From positions 1 to 28,686 of IMG/VR virus record IMGVR_UViG_3300009068_000144: a stretch of 28,686 nucleotides of DNA; one strand, given 5' to 3'. The position numbers were made by a program, and so were the translations under genes. The DNA comes from a virus. Of this stretch, positions 3,281 to 28,686 are shown one piece after another (within the stretch, counting starts at the first letter, position 1; every line of letters begins with the position of its first letter). The notes below the pieces were generated by a model. The model was not told the origin of the DNA. It ran no database searches and worked only from the letters and a program-made list of their open reading frames with translations.

Positions 3281-4180
3281 TTAGAAGTTGTATTCAACAC
3301 CAACGCCATATTGTGTAACGTCAGCGGCTGTGTCAACAAAACTCCAACGTCCATGCACAGTAAGTGCCTTGCTCATGGCATACGCTACACCAACAGCCTT
3401 GGCAGTTACACCAGTATTGGTTTCACCGTAGCTGCCTAATAGTGCAAGTTGTGAGTTAACGGGTTGACGAACACCCACGCTCTTGCCTGTGGTGCTTGCA
3501 CCAGACACTGTGTCATCGCTGTAGATACCAAACACTGTGGTACCTGTAGCAGCCACGGTATACTTGGCACCAAGGATGGTGCTTGCGCTGTTTGTGCTGC
3601 TGTCGTAACGTGCCAGGGTGGCAGACAATGGACCTGCTGCATAATCAATGCTGGCCGTTTGTACATTGGTCACACCAGCGGTTTCGCTGTTGGCCATCAC
3701 ATAGTTGCCTTTGAATCCGGCCACTGTTGCTGTGCTCAAGAACACTGCGTTTTGTAAACGGCTACCTTGTGCGCTGTGGATAGCAGATACGGTAGTACCA
3801 TAAGCATTTTCCAATGCGTCAAAGTTATCCAACACACGAGTTACTGAGTGCTTGTCGCGTCCCACACCCAGTGATCCCATGCTGTTGCTCAAGCTGAACA
3901 CTGAAATGCGATCACCAAGTGTGGTGGCACTGGGTGCGTCCAGGGCAACACCAGTTTCAATCACAGCACTGGCAGCGATACCGTTGCCAACATCGGCTGT
4001 GGCTTTAACGCCCAGGCGACTGGAATCATTGGTCAAACGTGTCAATGCATTAGCAGTACCCAAGGTATAAGATTCTTGATACTCACGCACTTTGCCATAG
4101 ACGCTGACTTGAGGGGTGGTTTGTGCCTGAACAAAACCTGCGGCCAATGCCAGGGCCAGTAGTAAAGCATATTTCTTCAT
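3281..4180 (-). CDS. Outer-membrane porin, Gram-negative (betaproteobacterial) type, 299 residues
   Basis: It begins with a clear Sec signal peptide: two Lys, a Leu/Ala core and a likely VQA cleavage site after residue 19. The mature start VSVYGKV, an SSRLGVKATADVGNG segment around residues 53-67, GSLGVGRD, alternating polar/hydrophobic strands and a final YNF with terminal Phe (recognised by the BAM complex) are hallmarks of betaproteobacterial general porins. At 299 residues it is somewhat shorter than typical members, which suggests trimmed loops. A good AAGGAAA site fixes the start. The gene has its own promoter (4239-4267) and terminator (3209-3237), a moron-like arrangement. Possible roles: altering outer-membrane permeability or nutrient uptake, or masking receptors against superinfection (all inference). 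Confidence 0.9.
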   Translation of the reverse strand: MKKYALLLALALAAGFVQAQTTPQVSVYGKVREYQESYTLGTANALTRLTNDSSRLGVKATADVGNGIAASAVIETGVALDAPSATTLGDRISVFSLSNSMGSLGVGRDKHSVTRVLDNFDALENAYGTTVSAIHSAQGSRLQNAVFLSTATVAGFKGNYVMANSETAGVTNVQTASIDYAAGPLSATLARYDSSTNSASTILGAKYTVAATGTTVFGIYSDDTVSGASTTGKSVGVRQPVNSQLALLGSYGETNTGVTAKAVGVAYAMSKALTVHGRWSFVDTAADVTQYGVGVEYNF

Positions 4181-6976: not shown

Positions 6977-7228
6977 TTAATCTCCATATCCGCCGGCGGT
7001 TTCTTCAATGTATTTTCTCAGCTCTGTGAATCCGCCAACGTGATTGTTGTTCACAAAAATCTGTGGTACTGTTCTTGCTGTGGGCACTGCTTCCAACAAG
7101 TCTTCTCGACTGTATCCGTGCCCAATTTTTCGTTCTTCATATGCAATGTTCCGCTGCTCCAATAGAGCCTTGGCTTGGTCGCAGAATGTGCAATTGTCTT
7201 TTGACCATACTATGGCTGTAGCGTTCAT
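6977..7228 (-). CDS. Glutaredoxin, 83 residues
   Basis: A small thiol-disulfide oxidoreductase that reduces ribonucleotide reductase using glutathione. The active site CTFC (Cys13, Cys16), the cis-proline motif TVPQIFV (Pro55) and the glutathione-binding GGFTEL are all present. The length is normal for a single-domain glutaredoxin. AAAGGAA precedes the ATG, 9 bases after the nrdB stop. Linkage to nrdB and nrdA makes it the probable dedicated electron donor for the phage RNR, as T4 NrdC is. Confidence 0.95.
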   Translation of the reverse strand: MNATAIVWSKDNCTFCDQAKALLEQRNIAYEERKIGHGYSREDLLEAVPTARTVPQIFVNNNHVGGFTELRKYIEETAGGYGD

Positions 7229-7237
7229 GGTGTTCCT

Positions 7238-8341
7238 TTATAGATTAGGTAGTTGATCGTAGTCCAGGCTTTCGCTCATGACTCCAATAACATAGTTAGT
7301 TGATTCGTTCTCTTGCAGTGCAGTTTGTTTCTTCGACGTGTCTGAATGCTTGTTAAACCAAGGGATAGGAGTGCTACGCGGTGCCGCTGCTTGATATTTG
7401 ATGCCAATATCTTTGAGCGCACCAACTGCTGTGTAATCCACAAAGTCTTTGAGAATGTTGGCATTGAGTCCAATCACCGGGCCCATTTTAAACAAGTAAT
7501 CAGCCCAGGCTTTTTCTTCACGAATCACATCCTGGTACAAGGCATATACTTCCTGTTCACACTCTACTTTAATGTCAGCAAAACGGTTGTCTTCTTTGAT
7601 AACCTGGTTGATAAGATAGGCAGTCCATCCTTTGTGCAACAGCTCGTCTTGAAGAATCAACCCAATGATGTTGCCATTGCCAATGAAGATTTTGTTCTCA
7701 ACCATGGCAAGGCTTGTGGCAAACGAAACCATGAACCGGAATGCTTCTAGTGCATAGCTGGCATGCAATGCCATCCAGATTGCCTTGATATGTTGTTTCT
7801 CATTGACGGTTTTTGGACTGATCTCTTTGAAACAATTGAGTTCGTGAAGTTTATCATAATACTGGCCTACGCTAGAAGCCATGTCTACGATTTCAGCTGT
7901 GTCATGAATGGTATTGAAAACATCTTTAGGCACGTTGTAGATATTACGGATGATGTGACTGTAACTCTTTGAATGAATATTTGTTTCAAAGAATCCCCAG
8001 TTGTACATCAATGCTTCCACTTCTGGCAGGCTGCATACTGGAGTGAATACTTGTGTAGGCCCACGACCTTGCAAACTATCCAGAGCTGTTTGACGCAGCA
8101 GATTGCTGGTAAAGATATGCTTGACTGCATCGCTGGCATCCTTGAAGTCATTGGCATCTTTGCTGAGACTGATCTCTTCAGGTTGCCAAAAGAATCCACG
8201 TGCAGTGGCTTCAAAGTCTGCAATCTTTTTATACTTGACTTCTTCAAAACGTTGGACAGTAACCGGACCTGCTGGATCCAGAAACATCTTACGATTCAAG
8301 TAATCTGTTTTTGTGGTTAGGTTGTATTGTGCTTGGCTCAT
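7238..8341 (-). CDS. nrdB: Class I ribonucleotide reductase beta subunit, 367 residues
   Basis: The small subunit houses the di-iron/tyrosyl radical cofactor that starts NDP reduction. Visible equivalents of the E. coli residues are Asp88 (in ALDSLQGRG), Glu119, His123, radical Tyr127 (in HSKSYSHIIRN), Glu199 (in ALEAFRF), and Glu233/His236 (in DELLH). The C-terminal tail carries NYVIG with the Tyr used in radical transfer. The length is close to E. coli NrdB. One oddity: an extra Asn between Glu119 and His123 makes ExxxH instead of ExxH. The start codon overlaps the lipoprotein stop as ATGA, so the two are coupled. It pairs with nrdA further upstream. Confidence 0.96.
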   Translation of the reverse strand: MSQAQYNLTTKTDYLNRKMFLDPAGPVTVQRFEEVKYKKIADFEATARGFFWQPEEISLSKDANDFKDASDAVKHIFTSNLLRQTALDSLQGRGPTQVFTPVCSLPEVEALMYNWGFFETNIHSKSYSHIIRNIYNVPKDVFNTIHDTAEIVDMASSVGQYYDKLHELNCFKEISPKTVNEKQHIKAIWMALHASYALEAFRFMVSFATSLAMVENKIFIGNGNIIGLILQDELLHKGWTAYLINQVIKEDNRFADIKVECEQEVYALYQDVIREEKAWADYLFKMGPVIGLNANILKDFVDYTAVGALKDIGIKYQAAAPRSTPIPWFNKHSDTSKKQTALQENESTNYVIGVMSESLDYDQLPNL

Positions 8342-9249
8342 TGTATAATGCTGTCGGCGGTGACTTGAATATTGCTAATGCTCCAGTATGATCCTGTGCT
8401 GTTGCACAATGCACCCCATGCACAACTGTTGTTCCACCATGGTGCAGAACCAGGTCCTGTTGGGCTGTAACCTTGCCAAAATGCTAGATTCAACCAGTAA
8501 CCATTTTTCATACTAGTGACCAATGCAGTCATATCCACAGTACCACTACCTTCTGCACCTGTGCCAATCAAACTATTATATACTACCACGCTCTTGCCAT
8601 CTTGTGAATAAGTCACTGTCATGGTAGGAGTTGTTCCGTATGTGAAATTGGTTACCATATCAAATGGTCGGGTCATGTCGATAACACCAACCATGTTATG
8701 CAACCCGTTGGTAGCAGTGGTTGAACTGGTCATTGACGAATAGTTAAAGCAACTGTTGTTGGCAGTTTCTGCAAATGCATACTCAAATCGTTGTGGAGCA
8801 CCAGACCCACCTGTTCCCAAATGCACAGTAGATTGTGTAATCTTGTTGCCATTGGTTTCTAAGAAATCAATCTCTTGGCAGTTCCATTGATTGTTATTTC
8901 CACCTGCATCACAATAGTTGGTGCCTTTTGGTTGAACGCCAGGCTGAACTGGATTTGATATCATATAGAAACTGGCATTAACATAGTTCTGTGCAAGTTT
9001 TGACAAATCAATAGTTGCTGTGATTTGGCTGATGTTTACATATCCGTGTTGTGATACAAGTCTTCCTGCTTCACAGTTTGTTCCTTCACCAAAGGTGACC
9101 GAGTTTCCAGAGATGACCGGATCAGTTCCACACTTGTTGTAGTCTACTACAAACGAAGGAGTAAATGTGTTTGCTGTTGCAGTAGGAGCAGGTGCTTTAT
9201 TGCAAGCCGCCAATACCAATATGCTTAATATAACTAGCAATTTTTTCAT
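8338..9249 (-). CDS. Lipoprotein with glycoside hydrolase clan-B (GH16/GH7-like) motif, 303 residues
   Basis: The N-terminus is a lipoprotein signal (two Lys, hydrophobic stretch, lipobox LAAC with Cys16). Asn at position +2 fits sorting to the outer membrane. Residues 124-133 read CQEIDFLETN, matching the ExDxxE catalytic signature of clan GH-B jelly-roll enzymes: Glu126 nucleophile, Asp128, Glu131 acid/base. The rest is Asn/Thr/Ser/Gly-rich and beta-strand-like, with aromatic residues (QWNC, FWQGY, PWWNN) that could line a sugar groove, and several cysteines. AAAGGAA precedes the ATG. It lies inside the nrd operon and overlaps nrdB by ATGA. It may be a glycan hydrolase or only a carbohydrate-binding jelly roll; the family call is from the motif alone. 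Confidence 0.75.
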   Translation of the reverse strand: MKKLLVILSILVLAACNKAPAPTATANTFTPSFVVDYNKCGTDPVISGNSVTFGEGTNCEAGRLVSQHGYVNISQITATIDLSKLAQNYVNASFYMISNPVQPGVQPKGTNYCDAGGNNNQWNCQEIDFLETNGNKITQSTVHLGTGGSGAPQRFEYAFAETANNSCFNYSSMTSSTTATNGLHNMVGVIDMTRPFDMVTNFTYGTTPTMTVTYSQDGKSVVVYNSLIGTGAEGSGTVDMTALVTSMKNGYWLNLAFWQGYSPTGPGSAPWWNNSCAWGALCNSTGSYWSISNIQVTADSIIQ

Positions 9250-9297: not shown

Positions 9298-9627
9298 TTA
9301 GATCTCAGACACATCGACAGTAACTTGTACACCAGTTTCATTGATCCATCTATTCCAATATACATACCAGGTGGGATCATTTGGTTTGCCTATATCTAAA
9401 GCCTCTTGATTTATCCAGGTATATCCAATGTCAGTACCTTCGGAGTTGATAGGAGATAGTTCTAATACTCCTTCATCTATAACTTGTTGCCTAAATGCAA
9501 GTTGTCTAGCTTGAGCTAGAGCATATTCATCTTGTTCTGCTTGTGATAAGGTGCCAATCCAATCTTGAAATGTAATTGGTGTGGTCCCTTCCGGCCATGT
9601 GTATATCCAAATTTGTGTTACAGTCAT
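9298..9627 (-). CDS. Hypothetical protein between nrdA and the lipoprotein gene, 109 residues
   Basis: I take the start MTVTQIWIY at 9627, because AAAGGAA lies just upstream; an in-frame extension to 9705 would run through the nrdA end. The protein is not recognised. It has a Trp-rich N-terminus, a central helix (DEYALAQARQLAFRQQVIDE) and a C-terminal TWYVYWNRWINETG segment. The many Trp/Tyr and moderate size resemble small phage structural or chaperone proteins, but nothing decisive is visible. The gene lies between two copies of a 35-bp repeat derived from the nrdA end, suggesting it was inserted into the nrd operon. Confidence 0.75.
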   Translation of the reverse strand: MTVTQIWIYTWPEGTTPITFQDWIGTLSQAEQDEYALAQARQLAFRQQVIDEGVLELSPINSEGTDIGYTWINQEALDIGKPNDPTWYVYWNRWINETGVQVTVDVSEI

Positions 9628-9628
9628 T

Positions 9629-9663
9629 TTTTTTCCTTTAAAGTTTACACGATTCACAATCTT
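9629..9663. repeat. 35-bp imperfect direct repeat, copy A (nrdA 3' end)
   Basis: This is the source copy of the repeat also found at 9253-9287. On the minus strand it encodes the last NrdA codons and stop, and provides the AAAGGAA site for the 109-residue gene. Confidence 0.88.
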
Positions 9664-11962
9664 CTTCATTATCAAAGTTGATTGGTTCCAACATTGTGGG
9701 AGCATCTTCTGCTGTTGCTTTACTACCTGCTTTGTTGATCAAGCTGTAGTAAAAGGTCTTCAATCCCCACGCATGTGATTGCATGAGATTCTTTGATATC
9801 AATGTGACAGGTACTTTACGATCTTCCCAGTGTGCAGGATTGTAGAACGTATTAGTGCTAATACTTTGATCTACATACGCTGCAATCACCGCGGCTGTTT
9901 TAAGGTAACTCTCACAATCTTTCTGTTCCCACATCAATTGGTATTTATTTCTAAGTTTATGATATTCAGGAACTACCTGCACAAAACTGCCAGCTTTGGA
10001 TTCTTTAACACTGATCAAACTCATTGGCATTTCAATACCATTGGTTGAATTGATTACCACACTGCTAGATTCCACTGGTGCAATTGCCATCTGTGTGGCA
10101 TTTCGAACTCCGTGTGTTTTCATATTAGAACGCAGGGTTTCCCAATCTAACTCAGGCACAAAGTCTGTGAGTTCGTTCACACCTGTTGCACGTAGTTCCC
10201 AGGGAAATGTTCCTTTGCCATACCGTGTGTGTGCACTGCCCAAACAAGCGCCGCGCTCTTGTGCCAGCTCAACACTGGCTTCGGTGAGATAGAATGCCAT
10301 GTGTTCCATCCAAGTTTTGACTTCAGCTAGGCTATCCTTCTCACCGTATTTTAGTCCTCTTTTTGCATGCCAGTATGCAAGATTGGTGATACCAATACCC
10401 AGTGGTCTAATTTCATCATTGCTTAGTTTAGACTGTATAGATAAAAAGTCCTGATAATCAAGAATATTGTTAAGACTGCGATGCAAAATACGGGCAGCAC
10501 GTCTAATATCTTCTGGATTACGGAAGGCACCCCAGTTGAGCGATCCCAATGTGCATAAAGCGATACGCCCGTTACTATCATCCAGGCGCTTAAAAGAGCG
10601 AGTAGGTAATAAGATTTCACAGCATAAGTTACTCTGGTAAATGGTATGATATTCAGGATCAAATGGTCCTTGTTTCATCACGTTGTCAATGAATACCAAG
10701 TAGATACGTCCGGTGTCGGTGCGTTCTTTTAGTATGCCCGATTTGAATACCTCTTCGGCACTCATGGTCTTTTTGCGTAGACCTTTTTGTTTTTCATACT
10801 TCACATAAAGTTCTTCAAATAGTTCTGTATTCTTGTAGAACGCTTCATACAAGTCCGGGACTTCATTGGGATCAAAGAATGTTATGTTCTCTTTGTTCTT
10901 GAATCTGCGCCAGAAAAATGCGGATAGAACCACACCATAGTCCATGTGTCTAACACGGGTTTCTTCTGTGCCTTGGTTGTTTTTAAGAACAATAAGGTCA
11001 TCAAACTGATGATGCCAAATAGGATAAAATACAGAAGCACTTGCATTGCGGATTCCTCCTTGTGAGCAACTTCTAAGGTCGCCAAACCACTTCTTTAAAA
11101 AAGGTATCATGCCAGTGTGCATGATTTCGCCTCCACGTATGGGTGATCCCAATGGTCGCAGTCGGCCAATCTCTAATCCAATGCCAGCACGTTTGCTGGC
11201 ATACTTGGCCATCATTTCTCCACTAGCAAAGATACTGTCCAAATCATCGTCACTGCGAATAAGTACACAACTACTGAATTGCTTGGTCGGAGTTCCCAAG
11301 CCAGCCAACACAGGGGTAGCCAATGTAAAAAGACCATCACTAGCAGCATTGTAGTATTCTTTGATGTATCGCATTCGGGCTGTGTTGGGTTCTTCCGAGT
11401 GAAAAACTGTGGCTGCTGCAACCATGTAACGAACTTGGGGAGTTTCATAAGTTTCCTTTGTGGCACGATTCTTTACTAGATACTTTTCAATCAACTGCTC
11501 AATAGCAGCATAGCCGTATTGTTCGTCCTTGGAATGATCTATCATGTCATGCATGCGATTCCAGTCGGCTTCGTCGTACCATTCCAACAGTTCCGGGGTG
11601 TACAAGCCTGTGGATACGTTTTTCTTCACAATCTCATACAGGTGGGGAACCTCATAAGATCCATATACGTCTTTGCGCAACATGCTGAGACGTTGCTTGC
11701 CTGCTACATATTGATAGTTGGTATGACCAACATCCGGATTGTGTTCAATATCAATTAGATCCACAATGGCTCGGAGCGTAACGCCGTCGATCTCTTTGGT
11801 AGTGATGCCATCATAAAAGTGCATCTGGGCTTTGATCTCCACCATGCTTTGGCTTACATCTGCTATGCCTGAACATACTTTGGCAATTTGGGTTTGCCAC
11901 TTTTCTAGGCTTAATTGTTCTTTTCTTCCGTTACGTTTAATAACTGTGATTTGTGTCGTCAT
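9638..11962 (-). CDS. nrdA: Class I ribonucleotide reductase alpha subunit, 774 residues
   Basis: The catalytic subunit reduces ribonucleoside diphosphates to deoxyribonucleotides. Residues 1-95 form an ATP-cone (VIKRNGRKEQLSLEKW onwards). Active-site residues are Cys232 (SSCVL), Asn445/Cys447/Glu449 (NLCCEI; Cys447 would carry the thiyl radical) and Cys470 (ALCTLGSLN). The C-terminal CESC pair (Cys769, Cys772) is the shuttle reduced by glutaredoxin. The length matches the family (E. coli 761). The ribosome binding site is weak; the start lies 4 bases after the upstream stop. nrdB lies downstream, separated by two non-RNR genes. Confidence 0.97.
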   Translation of the reverse strand: MTTQITVIKRNGRKEQLSLEKWQTQIAKVCSGIADVSQSMVEIKAQMHFYDGITTKEIDGVTLRAIVDLIDIEHNPDVGHTNYQYVAGKQRLSMLRKDVYGSYEVPHLYEIVKKNVSTGLYTPELLEWYDEADWNRMHDMIDHSKDEQYGYAAIEQLIEKYLVKNRATKETYETPQVRYMVAAATVFHSEEPNTARMRYIKEYYNAASDGLFTLATPVLAGLGTPTKQFSSCVLIRSDDDLDSIFASGEMMAKYASKRAGIGLEIGRLRPLGSPIRGGEIMHTGMIPFLKKWFGDLRSCSQGGIRNASASVFYPIWHHQFDDLIVLKNNQGTEETRVRHMDYGVVLSAFFWRRFKNKENITFFDPNEVPDLYEAFYKNTELFEELYVKYEKQKGLRKKTMSAEEVFKSGILKERTDTGRIYLVFIDNVMKQGPFDPEYHTIYQSNLCCEILLPTRSFKRLDDSNGRIALCTLGSLNWGAFRNPEDIRRAARILHRSLNNILDYQDFLSIQSKLSNDEIRPLGIGITNLAYWHAKRGLKYGEKDSLAEVKTWMEHMAFYLTEASVELAQERGACLGSAHTRYGKGTFPWELRATGVNELTDFVPELDWETLRSNMKTHGVRNATQMAIAPVESSSVVINSTNGIEMPMSLISVKESKAGSFVQVVPEYHKLRNKYQLMWEQKDCESYLKTAAVIAAYVDQSISTNTFYNPAHWEDRKVPVTLISKNLMQSHAWGLKTFYYSLINKAGSKATAEDAPTMLEPINFDNEEDCESCKL

Positions 11963-12965: not shown

Positions 12966-13727
12966 CTAAATGTACTTGGTGTAGTATTCTTCTACTTTGC
13001 GCCACCACAGATCACAATAATGATCATATTCTGTACCTTCAAGTATAAATTCTTGATATTGTGGTGGGGTGATAATATTATGATCAGCGTCAAGATCGGG
13101 TTTGACACACATTAGAATTACACCTTTGCGTATTTTTGTACCGTGCAATTCGTTATGTGCTTCTGCATAAGCACACAGTTGAACAAAGTAATCATCAATC
13201 CACTCACGCTTTTTAGGCTTGTTGGATTGTTTGTAATCCAGGATGGCTTCCTCATTTAGGTGTAATCCAGCACCATCAGTTGTGCCTGCATAGATCTTGG
13301 GAAAGTATAGCGGAACCTCTATGCCCCAGAACTCGTTCACATGCTTCAATCCATCACGTATCACAGTCTTGGCCATTTCGTGACTGCTCCAGCTAAACGG
13401 ATTTGTGCCACGTTCTTTGATTGAGCCTTTTTTCACATAATCTTCAAGATAAGTGTGCATACGTGTGCCGCGATTGGCAGCTTCGGTGGTTATTTGTTGT
13501 GCTTTTTCCGCTCCCACTGCACGTCGCCAATTATGCAGTGCTGCTTTGCTTTCTTCACTTTTGGTTTTATCAAGTATGGTGGTTACAGATGGTAAGTTGT
13601 TGCCGTCCGGTGTGGAATAGAATCGTTTGCCTTCTATAGTGATTCGAGGAATGGGTTGGTAATTAAATTTTGGGTTGTACAAATTAAACTCTAAAACTTT
13701 CTCCGCAACCGCAGCGGTCACGTTCAT
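12966..13727 (-). CDS. PD-(D/E)XK nuclease, RecB/MGME1-like, 253 residues
   Basis: A probable DNA exonuclease acting in replication or recombination. Motifs in order: PSVTTILDKTK (46-56), RGTRMH plus Glu95 (motif I), Asp151 (TTDG), Asp164-Tyr-Lys166 (the D-x-K of the nuclease core), and QLCAYAEA (Gln183, Tyr187), typical of RecB-like nucleases. Similar proteins are annotated as exonucleases in T4-like phages. The ATG at 13727 makes a 44-base overlap with iscA. A start nearer LEFNLYNPKFNYQP cannot be excluded, because conservation as I recall it begins there. Confidence 0.85.
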   Translation of the reverse strand: MNVTAAVAEKVLEFNLYNPKFNYQPIPRITIEGKRFYSTPDGNNLPSVTTILDKTKSEESKAALHNWRRAVGAEKAQQITTEAANRGTRMHTYLEDYVKKGSIKERGTNPFSWSSHEMAKTVIRDGLKHVNEFWGIEVPLYFPKIYAGTTDGAGLHLNEEAILDYKQSNKPKKREWIDDYFVQLCAYAEAHNELHGTKIRKGVILMCVKPDLDADHNIITPPQYQEFILEGTEYDHYCDLWWRKVEEYYTKYI

Positions 13728-14004
13728 TGGGATTGTTGAATTGAAATCCTTCGTTGAGTCCTTGTCTTGCGTAATCCACTTCTAATCCTTGTAGATATGC
13801 ACAGCTTTTGGGATCAACAAATAATTTACAGTTATTGCAGTCGATACAAATATCTTCCGGTTGTTCAGCATCTACGTATTCTAACACATAAGCAAGCCCA
13901 GAGCAACCGGTTGTTTTGACTCCTACACGAATACCAATGCCATGCCCACGACGTTGAATAGTTTGAGTTATTTTTCGAGCAGCAGTTTCAGTTAGTTTTA
14001 TCAT
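13684..14004 (-). CDS. iscA: A-type Fe-S carrier (IscA/ErpA family), 106 residues
   Basis: It receives iron or Fe-S clusters and passes them to target proteins. The three conserved cysteines are Cys34 (TTGCSGLAY), Cys98 and Cys100 (CGCGESF at the C-terminus). Length and ends (GLNEGFQFNNPNERDRCGCG) match E. coli IscA closely. Unusually, residues 53-68 add four more cysteines (CIDCNNC, then Cys68) where E. coli IscA has none. The start overlaps the radical SAM stop as ATGA. It is the last Fe-S gene of the iscU promoter transcript and overlaps the nuclease gene downstream. Confidence 0.93.
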   Translation of the reverse strand: MIKLTETAARKITQTIQRRGHGIGIRVGVKTTGCSGLAYVLEYVDAEQPEDICIDCNNCKLFVDPKSCAYLQGLEVDYARQGLNEGFQFNNPNERDRCGCGESFRV

Positions 14005-15254
14005 TTGATATGCCGATAATAAGAGTTTTTATCTTCTTCACACAGCAGGTCCCAGAATTTTTTATTGTTGACACTGAGATTGGTGTTGGTTAGTTTGTCC
14101 CATCTTGCAGTGGTTGACATATAAGTGGCCCAATTGGTCTCAGAAAAATCATTGCTAGTTAATTGGACTAAGAATGAATGTATGCTTTTTTTAAATATCG
14201 GATTTTGAATGAATAAGGCATATTCATGTGACAATATCTCTTGAATCTGTTCACTTAATTTTTTACGCAAATACAATGGTAATGCCAACAATGATAAATG
14301 ATCACATCGTGACAACGTATTGTCAAATATCCTAATGTTACGATCTAATATCGTAAACTTTTCAAAATAATCTAAAAATTCTTTAAGATATGCTATGTTA
14401 TTAATGTAAAAAGTTGGGCGGATATCAAAATCAACATTTGAATGTGTTTCTGTTAACAATTTAAATTTTTGTAAATTATTATGTATTTTTTCAAATTTTA
14501 CTGGATATCTCACATATACAAAATTATCTTCATCAGTTGAATCAACACTTATGGCAAACGTTAAACTTTTAAAATTATTGCACCAACTGCTGAAAGTCTC
14601 TTCAAGAAAAACAGATCCATTGGTGCCTATTTGCAAATCAATCTTGCTACTGAGATTTTCTTCTTGTAACCAGTTGGTCAGCATGTACAGGTCCGATTGA
14701 ACAGTTCCTTCACCACCCATGATGATTAGTTTGAAAAATGTATACTGATCAATGGTTTTTCTTATGTCAGATTTTACCATTTCAAAATACGTTGGGTCAT
14801 CGCTGATGGATTTGGGTTCATTTTTATTGTTGTTCCATATAGAATCATATAGACTGCTGGTATCACTATTGCATATCCTACATGCCATGTTACATTTATT
14901 GCTAAATGTAACAAACATAAAAAAAGTATCAATTTTTTTAGTTGCTAAAAATTTAGGCAACTCGTGCGGATTCAATTGAGCCAACCCCCGTTGTCGACCG
15001 CTAAATTGATTGTTAGCTTCTTGTGTATGACATAACTGACAATTTTTATCAATCTGTCCTGATTCAATATTTTTCTTTACCTCGGCAATAGGATTATCAC
15101 TTTGATCTGACCTATACCAACAACAAGGATCTCGTTTTGTTGCACCAAAATAAACACCCAAATTAGAATATGGTATTACACATAGATGTTGGTTATCCAT
15201 TGACCATTTATCAAACTCAGAAATATAGTCAAATGTTGTACTATTTGGAATCAT
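14001..15254 (-). CDS. Radical SAM protein with N-terminal twitch-like Cys region, 417 residues
   Basis: Radical SAM enzymes use a [4Fe-4S] cluster and SAM for radical chemistry. The cluster motif CNMACRIC (Cys121, Cys125, Cys128; CxxxCxxC) is intact, followed by MGGEGT (the GGE motif) and TNGS. The N-terminal third carries Cys44-Cys45 and CQLC (Cys72, Cys75), the pattern of twitch/SPASM-type proteins I know from phages. The substrate is unknown. The gene lies between iscU (no gap) and iscA (ATGA overlap), so cluster supply and use are probably coupled (inference). It is visibly more A+T-rich than neighbouring genes, which suggests separate acquisition. Confidence 0.9.
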   Translation of the reverse strand: MIPNSTTFDYISEFDKWSMDNQHLCVIPYSNLGVYFGATKRDPCCWYRSDQSDNPIAEVKKNIESGQIDKNCQLCHTQEANNQFSGRQRGLAQLNPHELPKFLATKKIDTFFMFVTFSNKCNMACRICNSDTSSLYDSIWNNNKNEPKSISDDPTYFEMVKSDIRKTIDQYTFFKLIIMGGEGTVQSDLYMLTNWLQEENLSSKIDLQIGTNGSVFLEETFSSWCNNFKSLTFAISVDSTDEDNFVYVRYPVKFEKIHNNLQKFKLLTETHSNVDFDIRPTFYINNIAYLKEFLDYFEKFTILDRNIRIFDNTLSRCDHLSLLALPLYLRKKLSEQIQEILSHEYALFIQNPIFKKSIHSFLVQLTSNDFSETNWATYMSTTARWDKLTNTNLSVNNKKFWDLLCEEDKNSYYRHIK

Positions 15255-15629
15255 TTAATGCTTGCTTTTGTAATCGATTACCGCTGCCTTTATGGCATCT
15301 TCGGCCAATATGCTACAATGTATCTTCACAGGAGGCAATGCCAGATGTTCGGCAATTTCTGAATTCTTGAGAGCTGCTGCTTGATCTAGAGTTTTGCCCT
15401 TGACCCATTCAGTTACCAAACTACTTGAAGCAATAGCACTGCCGCATCCATATGTTTTGAATCTTGCGTCGGTGATGATTCCATCTTGTACTTTGATTTG
15501 TAGTTTCATCACATCTCCGCAGGCAGGTGCTCCTACCATACCTGTTCCAATGTCTGTGTCGTCCTTGGCAAACGACCCTACATTGCGGGGGTTTTCATAA
15601 TGATCGATTACTTGATTTGAATATGCCAT
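15255..15629 (-). CDS. iscU: Fe-S cluster scaffold protein IscU, 124 residues
   Basis: It is the scaffold on which [2Fe-2S] clusters are built. All ligands are present: Cys37 and Asp39 (GAPACGDVM), Cys62 (YGCGSAIASSS), and His104-Cys105 (KIHCSILAEDA). The LPPVK motif (98-102), which E. coli HscA binds, is intact, so the phage protein probably plugs into the host IscS/HscA/HscB machinery; no cysteine desulfurase is seen in this window. The length is near E. coli (128). AAGGAA precedes the ATG, and a near-consensus sigma70 promoter sits directly upstream. Confidence 0.97.
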   Translation of the reverse strand: MAYSNQVIDHYENPRNVGSFAKDDTDIGTGMVGAPACGDVMKLQIKVQDGIITDARFKTYGCGSAIASSSLVTEWVKGKTLDQAAALKNSEIAEHLALPPVKIHCSILAEDAIKAAVIDYKSKH

Positions 15630-26691: not shown

Positions 26692-27038
26692 ATTTTTACC
26701 AATGCTGCTGTCATTCGCAGTTGTTCTTCAGCTTTGTCTACTGCATCCACTAGATCAGCAATTGCTGGATGTTTTTCAGCTAATGCTTGTATTTCTTTTT
26801 CTTTTTGCATCTTCTTTGCAGCCCATTCTAGCACAACGGCATATTCTGGTTTAAGCATCACTGTTGCATAGCTGGTATTCATGGTCATCCATTTTGTTCC
26901 ATCAAATGCTTCCATGAGATTCCCGTTGATCCTTATCATACCTTGCATGGGATTTTGTGTGTTTTGTGTCACATACGGTACCGCAGTGTCGCCACCACTA
27001 ACAAATATGTACGAGTCACCTTGCAAACCTTTGATCAT
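26688..27038 (-). CDS. Conserved phage protein, 116 residues
   Basis: It starts MIKGLQGDSYIFVSGGDTAV, followed by PMQGMIRINGNLMEAFDGTK, then a charged helical tail (residues 65-116). The N-terminal part resembles short beta-hairpin attachment modules of phage fibre or head proteins (MxRxN...xEvYDGxxW); I recall this protein type from T4-like phages. The tail (EWAAKKMQKEKEIQALAEKH) is probably a coiled coil. No enzyme motif. ATGA overlaps on both sides bind it to the mini-DnaE and glycosyltransferase-like genes, so these products are probably made together. Confidence 0.8.
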   Translation of the reverse strand: MIKGLQGDSYIFVSGGDTAVPYVTQNTQNPMQGMIRINGNLMEAFDGTKWMTMNTSYATVMLKPEYAVVLEWAAKKMQKEKEIQALAEKHPAIADLVDAVDKAEEQLRMTAALVKI

Positions 27039-27630
27039 CCTACTAACTCCAATATAGCTTGTTCAAATTGTCGGAATTCAGCATCAATGACCCAATTTAA
27101 ATTTAGAAAATTAGATCTATTTTTCAGTGCAATCAACTCCAATGCCGACTGATTTGCTTGCCAATCAAATGAGTCAAGATTATTACATAGATCAACTATT
27201 TTGTCAATGCGTTTGGTATAGACTAATTCGTCATCATAACTTTCATCCCATAACTGACTGTAGGTATGGAATCCTAACTCTTTAAGATACTTTAAAAAAT
27301 ACGGAGTGGCAACTAGTACAAATGGAATTCCGGTGATTAGACATTTGAATACTTTTTCAGTCGGAAAAAATCCATACTCATAGTCAATATCTGTTTCTAC
27401 CACAAGATTAAAATCAGCTTGGTTATACATGTGTATAGGCAGTGTCTGACTCACTGTGTGATAATTATATTTTTCTTTTTCTAATATTGCTGTGTAAGGA
27501 TCAAATTCTCCTGGCACAAATTTTTTCACATCAAATTGATCTGCCGGCATTCCAAAATCAACACCGCTATATCTAAAAATAAAATTTTTATATTTGATTT
27601 TTTCTAGTAACTGATTTTTAAAATAGGTTC
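27035..27630. repeat. Tandem duplication, unit 1 (3' half of GT-like gene)
   Basis: Matches 28092-28686 at an offset of 1075 (left part) or 1072 bases (right part). Identical runs include 27153-27250 (98 bases), 27353-27444 (92 bases) and 27494-27604 (111 bases). The segment 27445-27493 between the last two is clearly divergent. Confidence 0.92.
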
Positions 27631-28105
27631 GTTCTGCTCGCACATTGCCGGTGGTAGAAACAAATCTCATTGGCTTAGTGGTGTTGAATTTGTATTCCTT
27701 GTCAAGATAAAAACTTAGTTCCCAGGGAGAGTTGTACACGTCAGCCATAAGAAATAAAAAAAGATAATGCATGATCCAGGTGTAGTTTATTTTTAAATCA
27801 AGATCAGTTTTACTAAAATGAGATTCATTGGCAAATATAATATAGTGTTTGTCTGTGTTGTATTGATAAAATTGAGGAGTTGAATGCTTGCCCTCGGACA
27901 CACAATCAATTGCTACAATTGGATTCTTGCACTGATTTATAGAGTCTATATCTGTGTAGTGGAAACAAGGTATGCCGGTTTTACTTTTTTGTATGTTAAT
28001 AATTCCAGGATCTTGATTGTAAAAATTATTATAGTCTTTCCAAATTTGATATTGATCAAGGAATTCTGTTACCTGCCCATTGGTATTAATTTCAAATGTT
28101 TTCAT
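27035..28105 (-). CDS. Glycosyltransferase-like protein, tandem copy 1, 356 residues
   Basis: The C-terminal half contains DIDYEYGFFPTEKVFKCLIT, then GIPFVLVATPYFLKYLKELG and LWDESYD. The FxTEKxxKxLxxGxPF pattern resembles the donor-binding half of GT-B enzymes such as GT10 fucosyltransferases. Residues about 150-190 (MRFVSTTGNVRAERTYFKNQ) could be another conserved loop. The N-terminal half is not recognised. The gene is A+T-rich, and its DNA is largely repeated in copy 2. It starts inside the end of copy 2 (14-base overlap). The likely role is adding sugar to a phage or host molecule; the family call is tentative. Confidence 0.75.
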   Translation of the reverse strand: MKTFEINTNGQVTEFLDQYQIWKDYNNFYNQDPGIINIQKSKTGIPCFHYTDIDSINQCKNPIVAIDCVSEGKHSTPQFYQYNTDKHYIIFANESHFSKTDLDLKINYTWIMHYLFLFLMADVYNSPWELSFYLDKEYKFNTTKPMRFVSTTGNVRAERTYFKNQLLEKIKYKNFIFRYSGVDFGMPADQFDVKKFVPGEFDPYTAILEKEKYNYHTVSQTLPIHMYNQADFNLVVETDIDYEYGFFPTEKVFKCLITGIPFVLVATPYFLKYLKELGFHTYSQLWDESYDDELVYTKRIDKIVDLCNNLDSFDWQANQSALELIALKNRSNFLNLNWVIDAEFRQFEQAILELVG

Positions 28106-28686
28106 TGGTATCCCCTACTAACTCCAGTATAGCTTGTTCAAATTGTTGGAATTGCGCATCAATGACCCGATTTAGATTTAGGAAATTACATTTATTTTTC
28201 AACGCAATCAACTCCAGTGCTGATTGGTTTGCTTGCCAATCAAATGAGTCAAGATTATTACATAGATCAACTATTTTGTCAATGCGTTTGGTATAGACTA
28301 ATTCGTCATCATAACTTTCATCCCAGAGATCATTGTAGGTATGGAATCCTAACTCTTTAAGATATTTTAAAAAATACGGAGTGGCAACTAGTACAAATGG
28401 AATTCCGGATATCAAGCACTTGAGGATTTTTTCAGTCGGAAAAAATCCATACTCATAGTCAATATCTGTTTCTACCACAAGATTAAAATCAGCTTGGTTA
28501 TACATGTGTATAGGCAGTGACCAACCTAGACTATGATTATATTTTTTTAATGTTGACATTCCTGCGTAAGGATCAAATTCTCCTGGCACAAATTTTTTCA
28601 CATCAAATTGATCTGCCGGCATTCCAAAATCAACACCGCTATATCTAAAAATAAAATTTTTATATTTGATTTTTTCCAATAACTGA
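28092..28686 (-). CDS. Glycosyltransferase-like protein, tandem copy 2 (5' end outside window)
   Basis: The frame is open to the right edge, so the true start lies beyond it; about 197 C-terminal residues are visible. It is nearly identical to copy 1 over GFFPTEKILKCLISGIPF and the following 100 residues. It differs sharply over about 16 residues after FDPY (AGMSTLKKYNHSLGWS against TAILEKEKYNYHTVSQT, one residue longer in copy 1). It ends with a few extra residues (DTNENI). The stop overlaps the ATG of copy 1 by 14 bases. The duplication and patchy divergence suggest diversification of acceptor or donor choice (inference). Confidence 0.8.
   Translation of the reverse strand, partial: QLLEKIKYKNFIFRYSGVDFGMPADQFDVKKFVPGEFDPYAGMSTLKKYNHSLGWSLPIHMYNQADFNLVVETDIDYEYGFFPTEKILKCLISGIPFVLVATPYFLKYLKELGFHTYNDLWDESYDDELVYTKRIDKIVDLCNNLDSFDWQANQSALELIALKNKCNFLNLNRVIDAQFQQFEQAILELVGDTNENI
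28092..28686. repeat. Tandem duplication, unit 2 (continues past window edge)
   Basis: Second unit of the duplication described at 27035-27630, with identical runs at 28228-28325, 28428-28519 and 28566-28676. Similarity is still strong at the last base, so the repeated region extends beyond the window. Confidence 0.92.

Follow-up and report, generated by a model that had tools for sequence, protein, structure and literature searches.

Why a phage should carry, inside the operon for its class I ribonucleotide reductase (RNR), a gene for an exported lipoprotein with the catalytic motif of a glycoside hydrolase is the question raised by this locus, which lies in a viral DNA stretch of 28,686 nucleotides (IMG/VR record IMGVR_UViG_3300009068_000144, positions 1 to 28,686; hereafter the window). 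The 303-codon open reading frame at 8338-9249 on the minus strand, its lipobox LAAC and the motif CQEIDFLETN were all present as first described, and the ATGA junction with nrdB is likewise seen in the sequence, where the TGA of the lipoprotein gene (8340-8338) overlaps the nrdB ATG (8341-8339) by 4 nt (Table 1). The original prediction placed the gene between nrdA and nrdB; Pfam and PHROGs matches confirm that both flank it, but a second, small ORF (9298-9627) shares the interval. The nrdA tail sequence GTGTAAACTTTAAAGGAAAAAA stands upstream of each of these two genes in the window, and the small ORF looks as though it had been brought in by a duplication of the nrdA tail; in L008, L010 and most sister loci the lipoprotein gene lies directly behind nrdA with no small ORF between them. 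A promoter scan of the window gave matches at or below chance level, and the T4-type late promoter TATAAATA occurs twice in the window, no more often than expected by chance, and not once upstream of the lipoprotein gene.

Table 1. Features of the lipoprotein locus and of a protein found beside its relatives. Positions refer to the window unless another locus is named.
Feature	Position	Strand	Basis or remark
GH7-like exported lipoprotein gene, 303 aa	8338..9249	-	ORF, 56 homologues, fold matches, hhalign to GH7
nrdB, class I RNR small subunit	7238..8341	-	PF00268 1.3e-39; phrog_86 5e-109
nrdA, class I RNR large subunit	9638..11962	-	PF02867 6.9e-111; phrog_84 3.5e-261
Glutaredoxin gene, downstream, same operon	6977..7228	-	PF00462 7.1e-14
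ATGA overlap, lipoprotein-gene stop and nrdB start	8338..8341	-	sequence; same spacing in most L001-L020 loci
Small cargo ORF (109 aa family) between nrdA and lipoprotein gene	9298..9627	-	family also found between nrdA and nrdB in other phages
Second copy of nrdA tail/RBS GTGTAAACTTTAAAGGAAAAAA	9253..9274	-	serves the lipoprotein gene as ribosome-binding region; first copy 9629-9650
Lipobox L13-A-A-C16, predicted lipid-modified Cys16; residues 1-15 signal peptide	9202..9213	-	sequence
Catalytic motif E126-I-D128-F-L-E131	8857..8874	-	predicted nucleophile, assisting Asp and acid/base; aligned with Cel7A E212/D214/E217
Y112-C113-D114	8908..8916	-	opposite Cel7A Y171-C172-D173 (hhalign, MAFFT)
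C124	8878..8880	-	opposite Cel7A C210; predicted disulfide with C113; invariant; spacing to the nucleophile (two residues) as in GH7
H143	8821..8823	-	probable counterpart of Cel7A H228; invariant in A2; motif in 55/56
W258 of FWQ motif	8476..8478	-	opposite Cel7A W367 (SLWDD); invariant in A2
Secreted cysteine-rich protein	L034 6912-7514; L046; L025 2453-3052; L022 11840-12409 (-)		

Contig scans recovered homologues of the protein in 56 distinct viral contigs (~45-100% identical). Loss of Glu126 and Glu131 among such homologues had been named beforehand as a result that should overturn the prediction, and both residues are kept in all 56, as are the whole ExDxxE motif (counting the ELDFME of L137, which escaped a stricter script pattern) and YCD[AS]GG. 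The ratio dN/dS was 0.08-0.11 against the window copy and 0.03-0.07 between close pairs, and the gene is single-copy in each of 22 records. Judged from these homologues, their conserved motifs, the low dN/dS and the single copy, purifying selection acts on the ORF, which is a functional gene. The copy in L049 (1-584) is broken over two frames and represents either a decayed gene or a sequencing error.

The N-terminus conforms to the bacterial-lipoprotein pattern [LVI][ASTVI][GAS]C, with LAAC at residues 13-16, and a lipobox-like N-terminus was found in 49 of the 54 homologues in which this end is intact. The other five (L021, L022, L025, L026 and L051) have cleavable-looking or anchor-like signals instead, and since some relatives replace the lipobox in this way, predicted export, rather than one particular anchor, is the constant of the family. 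The residue at +2 is T, S, N, Q or G and in no homologue Asp, which is compatible with outer-membrane sorting under the rule, established mainly in E. coli, that Asp at +2 leads to avoidance of the Lol pathway. The default orientation of outer-membrane lipoproteins in Proteobacteria is towards the periplasm. The earlier description of an outer-membrane-anchored enzyme is accordingly upheld by sequence as far as the lipid anchor goes, while sorting to the outer membrane may be supposed from the +2 rule and surface exposure is unsupported, given the periplasm-facing default.

Whether the protein would fold as a jelly roll or otherwise had been put forward as a further test, and structure prediction returned a jelly roll of clan GH-B (AlphaFold2, Foldseek, VIA-align). 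An AlphaFold2 model built from 30 family members (pLDDT 85.4, pTM 0.85) superseded an earlier one from 17 close sequences, which was weak (pLDDT 62) yet already pointed to GH7. The newer model has the beta-jelly-roll common to GH7 and GH16, with Z scores of 15-18 to members of both, and carries ExDxxE on a single strand (125-133), as in clan GH-B. GH7 folds come closer to it than GH16 folds: in a Foldseek search of the PDB, ranks 1-43 were all GH7 cellulases, with Trichoderma reesei EG I (1eg1) the best at E 3.5e-10, and the first GH16 enzymes appeared at rank 44. VIA-align 2 likewise gave GH7 at ranks 1-46, led by the small GH7 endoglucanase RsSymEG1 (8pof; Z 18.1, rmsd 3.5, 242 residues, 23% identity) and followed by other GH7 enzymes at Z 16.5-17.7. 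BFVD held weak matches only, the best being a Pithovirus 'GH16' at E 4.4e-6.

The same division was found at the level of sequence profiles. With a GH7 profile made from five sequences confirmed in PDB searches (both query seeds matched their PDB chains), hhalign scored the phage family at 58.8 (probability 93.8, P 1.8e-7) with the catalytic motifs in register; the profile is small and the exact score is not to be over-read, but its distance from the control maxima is nonetheless wide (25.0 for column-shuffled GH7 in 200 runs, 33.9 for block-shuffled and 20.3 for reversed). A GH16-family enzyme of the laminarinase/lichenase type would share the fold and ExDxxE, and the best GH16 structure, VvEG16 (5dze), aligns at Z 15.5 over 189 residues with higher target coverage. 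We nevertheless give this reading hardly any probability, because GH7 outranks GH16 in both structural comparisons, because the score against a GH16 profile (seven sequences; small and lichenase-type) was 20.6, at background level, and because the YCD...C pair and CxExDxxExN are of GH7 type. The original 'GH16/GH7-type' reading therefore holds for the clan fold and motif and narrows to GH7-like, the GH16 half being dropped. PF00840 fails to detect the family, and for this reason we name the protein GH7-like: it is a candidate for an outlying GH7 branch, and we refrain from counting it among the members of GH7.

Residue by residue, counterparts were found for the entire GH7 active-site set of Cel7A (Y145, Y171-C172-D173, C210, E212, D214, E217, H228 and W367). 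In addition to the pairings in Table 1, the alignments place Y95 and N133 opposite Cel7A Y145 and N219, and the positions Y95, Y112-C113-D114, C124, E126, D128, E131, N133, H143 and W258 are all invariant in alignment A2; the pairing of H143 with H228 is one residue off and approximate. Cel7A C172 and C210 form a disulfide, and their two positions are taken in the phage protein by C113 and C124. The N-terminal ~60 residues and most of the long loops of fungal GH7 are missing from the phage protein, so that its cleft may be open and its action of the endo type, and its substrate specificity may differ from that of the fungal enzymes.

Single-sequence and profile searches with the family (Pfam, NCBIfam, PHROGs, and the PDB by phmmer/hmmsearch) gave nothing useful, and PF00840 was without a match both in hmmscan of 30 family members at E 10 and in 11 phage records at E 10. 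An azurin match in the PDB (E 0.2) was dismissed as chance or signal peptide, and the PHROG matches of the lipoprotein were set aside as chance or signal peptide only. In tblastn, none of three family members matched any of 50,697 phage records and the window protein matched no plasmid, and the classical GH7 enzyme EG I likewise had no match in 50,697 phage and 72,556 plasmid records. Nor did a relative appear in two pattern scans of GTDB genomes, although these needed short exact peptide patterns and distant bacterial relatives could escape them, and literature searches on GH7 in phages or viruses yielded nothing relevant. These negatives hold for the phage, plasmid and GTDB collections covered and should not be read as absence.

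The position of the gene was compared across loci. The order nrdA-GH7-nrdB holds in L001-L020 and also, though interrupted by inserts, in L035-L040; in others (L028-L034, L041-L046) it is nrdA-nrdB-GH7-grx; and nine loci (L021, L022, L024-L026, L047, L048, L050 and L052) have the GH7-like gene with no RNR genes nearby. Conversely, among loci drawn by nrdB similarity, the 64 with both nrdA and nrdB have gaps ranging from an overlap to more than 3 kb with varied inserts, and just 1 of 77 contains the GH7-like gene. The junction between nrdA and nrdB is thus a hotspot for cargo, and a place inside the RNR operon tells little of function. Across L062-L138, an aldolase-like ORF starting MLETICDIMVDAYKRNWITSRDGN recurs in this gap in many loci, and the 109-aa family of the window's small ORF occurs there in L076, L080, L083, L094, L119 and L131, with two copies in L076 and in L080. 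Away from the RNR genes, the GH7-like gene of L021 starts right after a holin gene (phrog_3427, 4e-8), with an endolysin gene (phrog_181, 3.8e-80) ~1.2 kb upstream, and in L026 the stretch 2.5-3.7 kb upstream contains genes for a secreted nuclease and a secreted SLT transglycosylase. A secreted cysteine-rich protein without a Pfam match accompanies the GH7-like gene on four contigs (Table 1).

As for the phages themselves, which are uncultivated and T4-like, gp23-type capsid genes are present on three large contigs of the window's group, and the window's nrdA is nearest, among isolates, to those of T4-like phages of Xanthomonas and Stenotrophomonas. The window also encodes a 299-aa porin-like outer-membrane protein (3281-4180, minus strand) with no match in phage isolates; it weakly matches PorB (E 4.5e-4) and an Azoarcus porin, a likeness that weakly suggests a betaproteobacterial host. 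Other features of these genomes include nrdA genes split by inserts of 1.4-2 kb, possibly introns or homing endonuclease genes (L010 447-1823, L011 2513-4562), and a GIY-YIG-like ORF on the opposite strand between nrdB and glutaredoxin (L008 7994-8581, minus strand). IscA-like, radical-SAM-like and IscU-like genes stand in a row at 13684-15629 (minus strand) of the window, the IscU- and IscA-like genes being kept in sister phages, and tandem near-duplicate genes with the common stretch EKIKYKNFIFRYSGVDFGMPADQFDVKKFVPGEFDPY lie at 27035-28105 and 28092-28679 (minus strand).

Taken together, sequence and model point to a Sec-exported, lipid-anchored GH7 relative, most like the small GH7 endoglucanases, that would cut a beta-1,4 glycan of the host envelope or exopolysaccharide, a reading to which we give about an even chance. 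In such a retaining endo-hydrolase for beta-1,4-linked glycan, Glu126 would act as nucleophile and Glu131 as acid/base. The lipoprotein would be made together with the nucleotide-metabolism enzymes and, once exported, would sit on the host outer membrane, facing either the periplasm or the outside. From there it may cut an exopolysaccharide resembling cellulose, or some other envelope polymer with beta-1,4 links, and so ease the release and spread of progeny; the gene would be moron-type cargo at the nrdA-nrdB junction with no part in nucleotide reduction. Of the roles first suggested, which were trimming of surface glycans, help in lysis and blocking of re-adsorption, the holin-adjacent relative in one record (L021) favours a lysis or envelope role. 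Against such an envelope glycanase count the limitation of that lysis context to this one record, the failure of PF00840 to detect the family, and the place of the window copy among RNR genes, whose operon T4-like phages usually express early or in the middle period and not with late lysis genes.

The holin and endolysin genes near the GH7-like gene in L021, the secreted SLT transglycosylase in L026 and the periplasm-facing default would suit a helper of lysis that cuts peptidoglycan or another periplasmic glycan; the window copy lies outside any lysis cassette and GH7 and GH16 enzymes are not known to cleave peptidoglycan, which makes this quite improbable. The same default topology speaks against the idea that an anchored glucanase cuts environmental beta-glucan of algae or plants and that the nearby porin imports the oligosaccharides, feeding the infected cell. 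Sister-group contigs (e.g. L003-L008, L010-L012) do carry a porin-like gene 74-95% identical to that of the window, and the likeness to PorB-type porins and the Azoarcus porin is in keeping with uptake, but most other GH7-like loci have no porin gene in their flanks and no transporter or glycosidase partner was seen, so that we consider nutrient scavenging unlikely. Finally, the lipoprotein form, expression from an RNR operon and a weak match to PHROG 1119 'Cor' (E 0.073), confined to the signal peptide, would fit a superinfection-exclusion lipoprotein that blocks a receptor in the manner of T5 Llp or Cor, with the hydrolase fold serving as a glycan-binding lectin only. Retention of ExDxxE in every homologue is unexpected for a lectin and several relatives are without a lipobox, and we regard this explanation as very improbable.

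The preferred reading, a glycan-cutting GH7 relative in the host envelope, bears on the known range of the family. GH7 is the workhorse of fungal cellulose breakdown and is described as eukaryotic: one account sets fungal GH7 against the GH48 of prokaryotes and notes that GH7 occurs in 'other eukaryotic kingdoms' (PMC7571853), and another finds it almost exclusively in fungi, plus a few animals (PMC3490864). A bolder version, which we put forward tentatively and hold to be doubtful, is that phages possess a true GH7-lineage cellulase, a compact lipid-anchored branch that digests bacterial beta-1,4-glucan (e.g. a cellulose matrix) from the infected cell and is possibly an ancient or source lineage of GH7. 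A compact, conserved phage branch with its active site complete would carry GH7 into the viruses that infect bacteria, provide a minimal GH7 scaffold, and point to an attack on host glycans anchored to the infected cell, distinct from tail-borne depolymerases.

Among known phages, Xanthomonas phage X1 and Stenotrophomonas phage Moby have nrdA genes 53-58% identical to that of the window and, as here, adjacent nrdA and nrdB, but their operons, like all phage records searched, are without a match to the GH7-like gene. The phage lipoprotein morons T5 Llp and Cor are small exported lipoproteins produced in infection, as the GH7-like protein would be, but act without a hydrolase domain. GH16 enzymes such as VvEG16 have the clan fold and catalytic motif of the phage protein but differ in their lower Z, shorter alignment and lack of profile-level sequence similarity to the phage family. 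The GH7 endoglucanases RsSymEG1 and EG I, in contrast, have the same jelly-roll over 238-242 aligned residues and also share the ExDxxE triad, YCD, the Cys two residues before the nucleophile and the active-site His and Trp, with PFDMVTNF/PFTVVTQF and SNI motifs that are alike. At ~18-23% identity, the phage protein departs from them in having fewer loops and disulfides and no N-terminal ~60 residues, in being PF00840-negative, and in being encoded by a phage gene with a bacterial lipoprotein signal.
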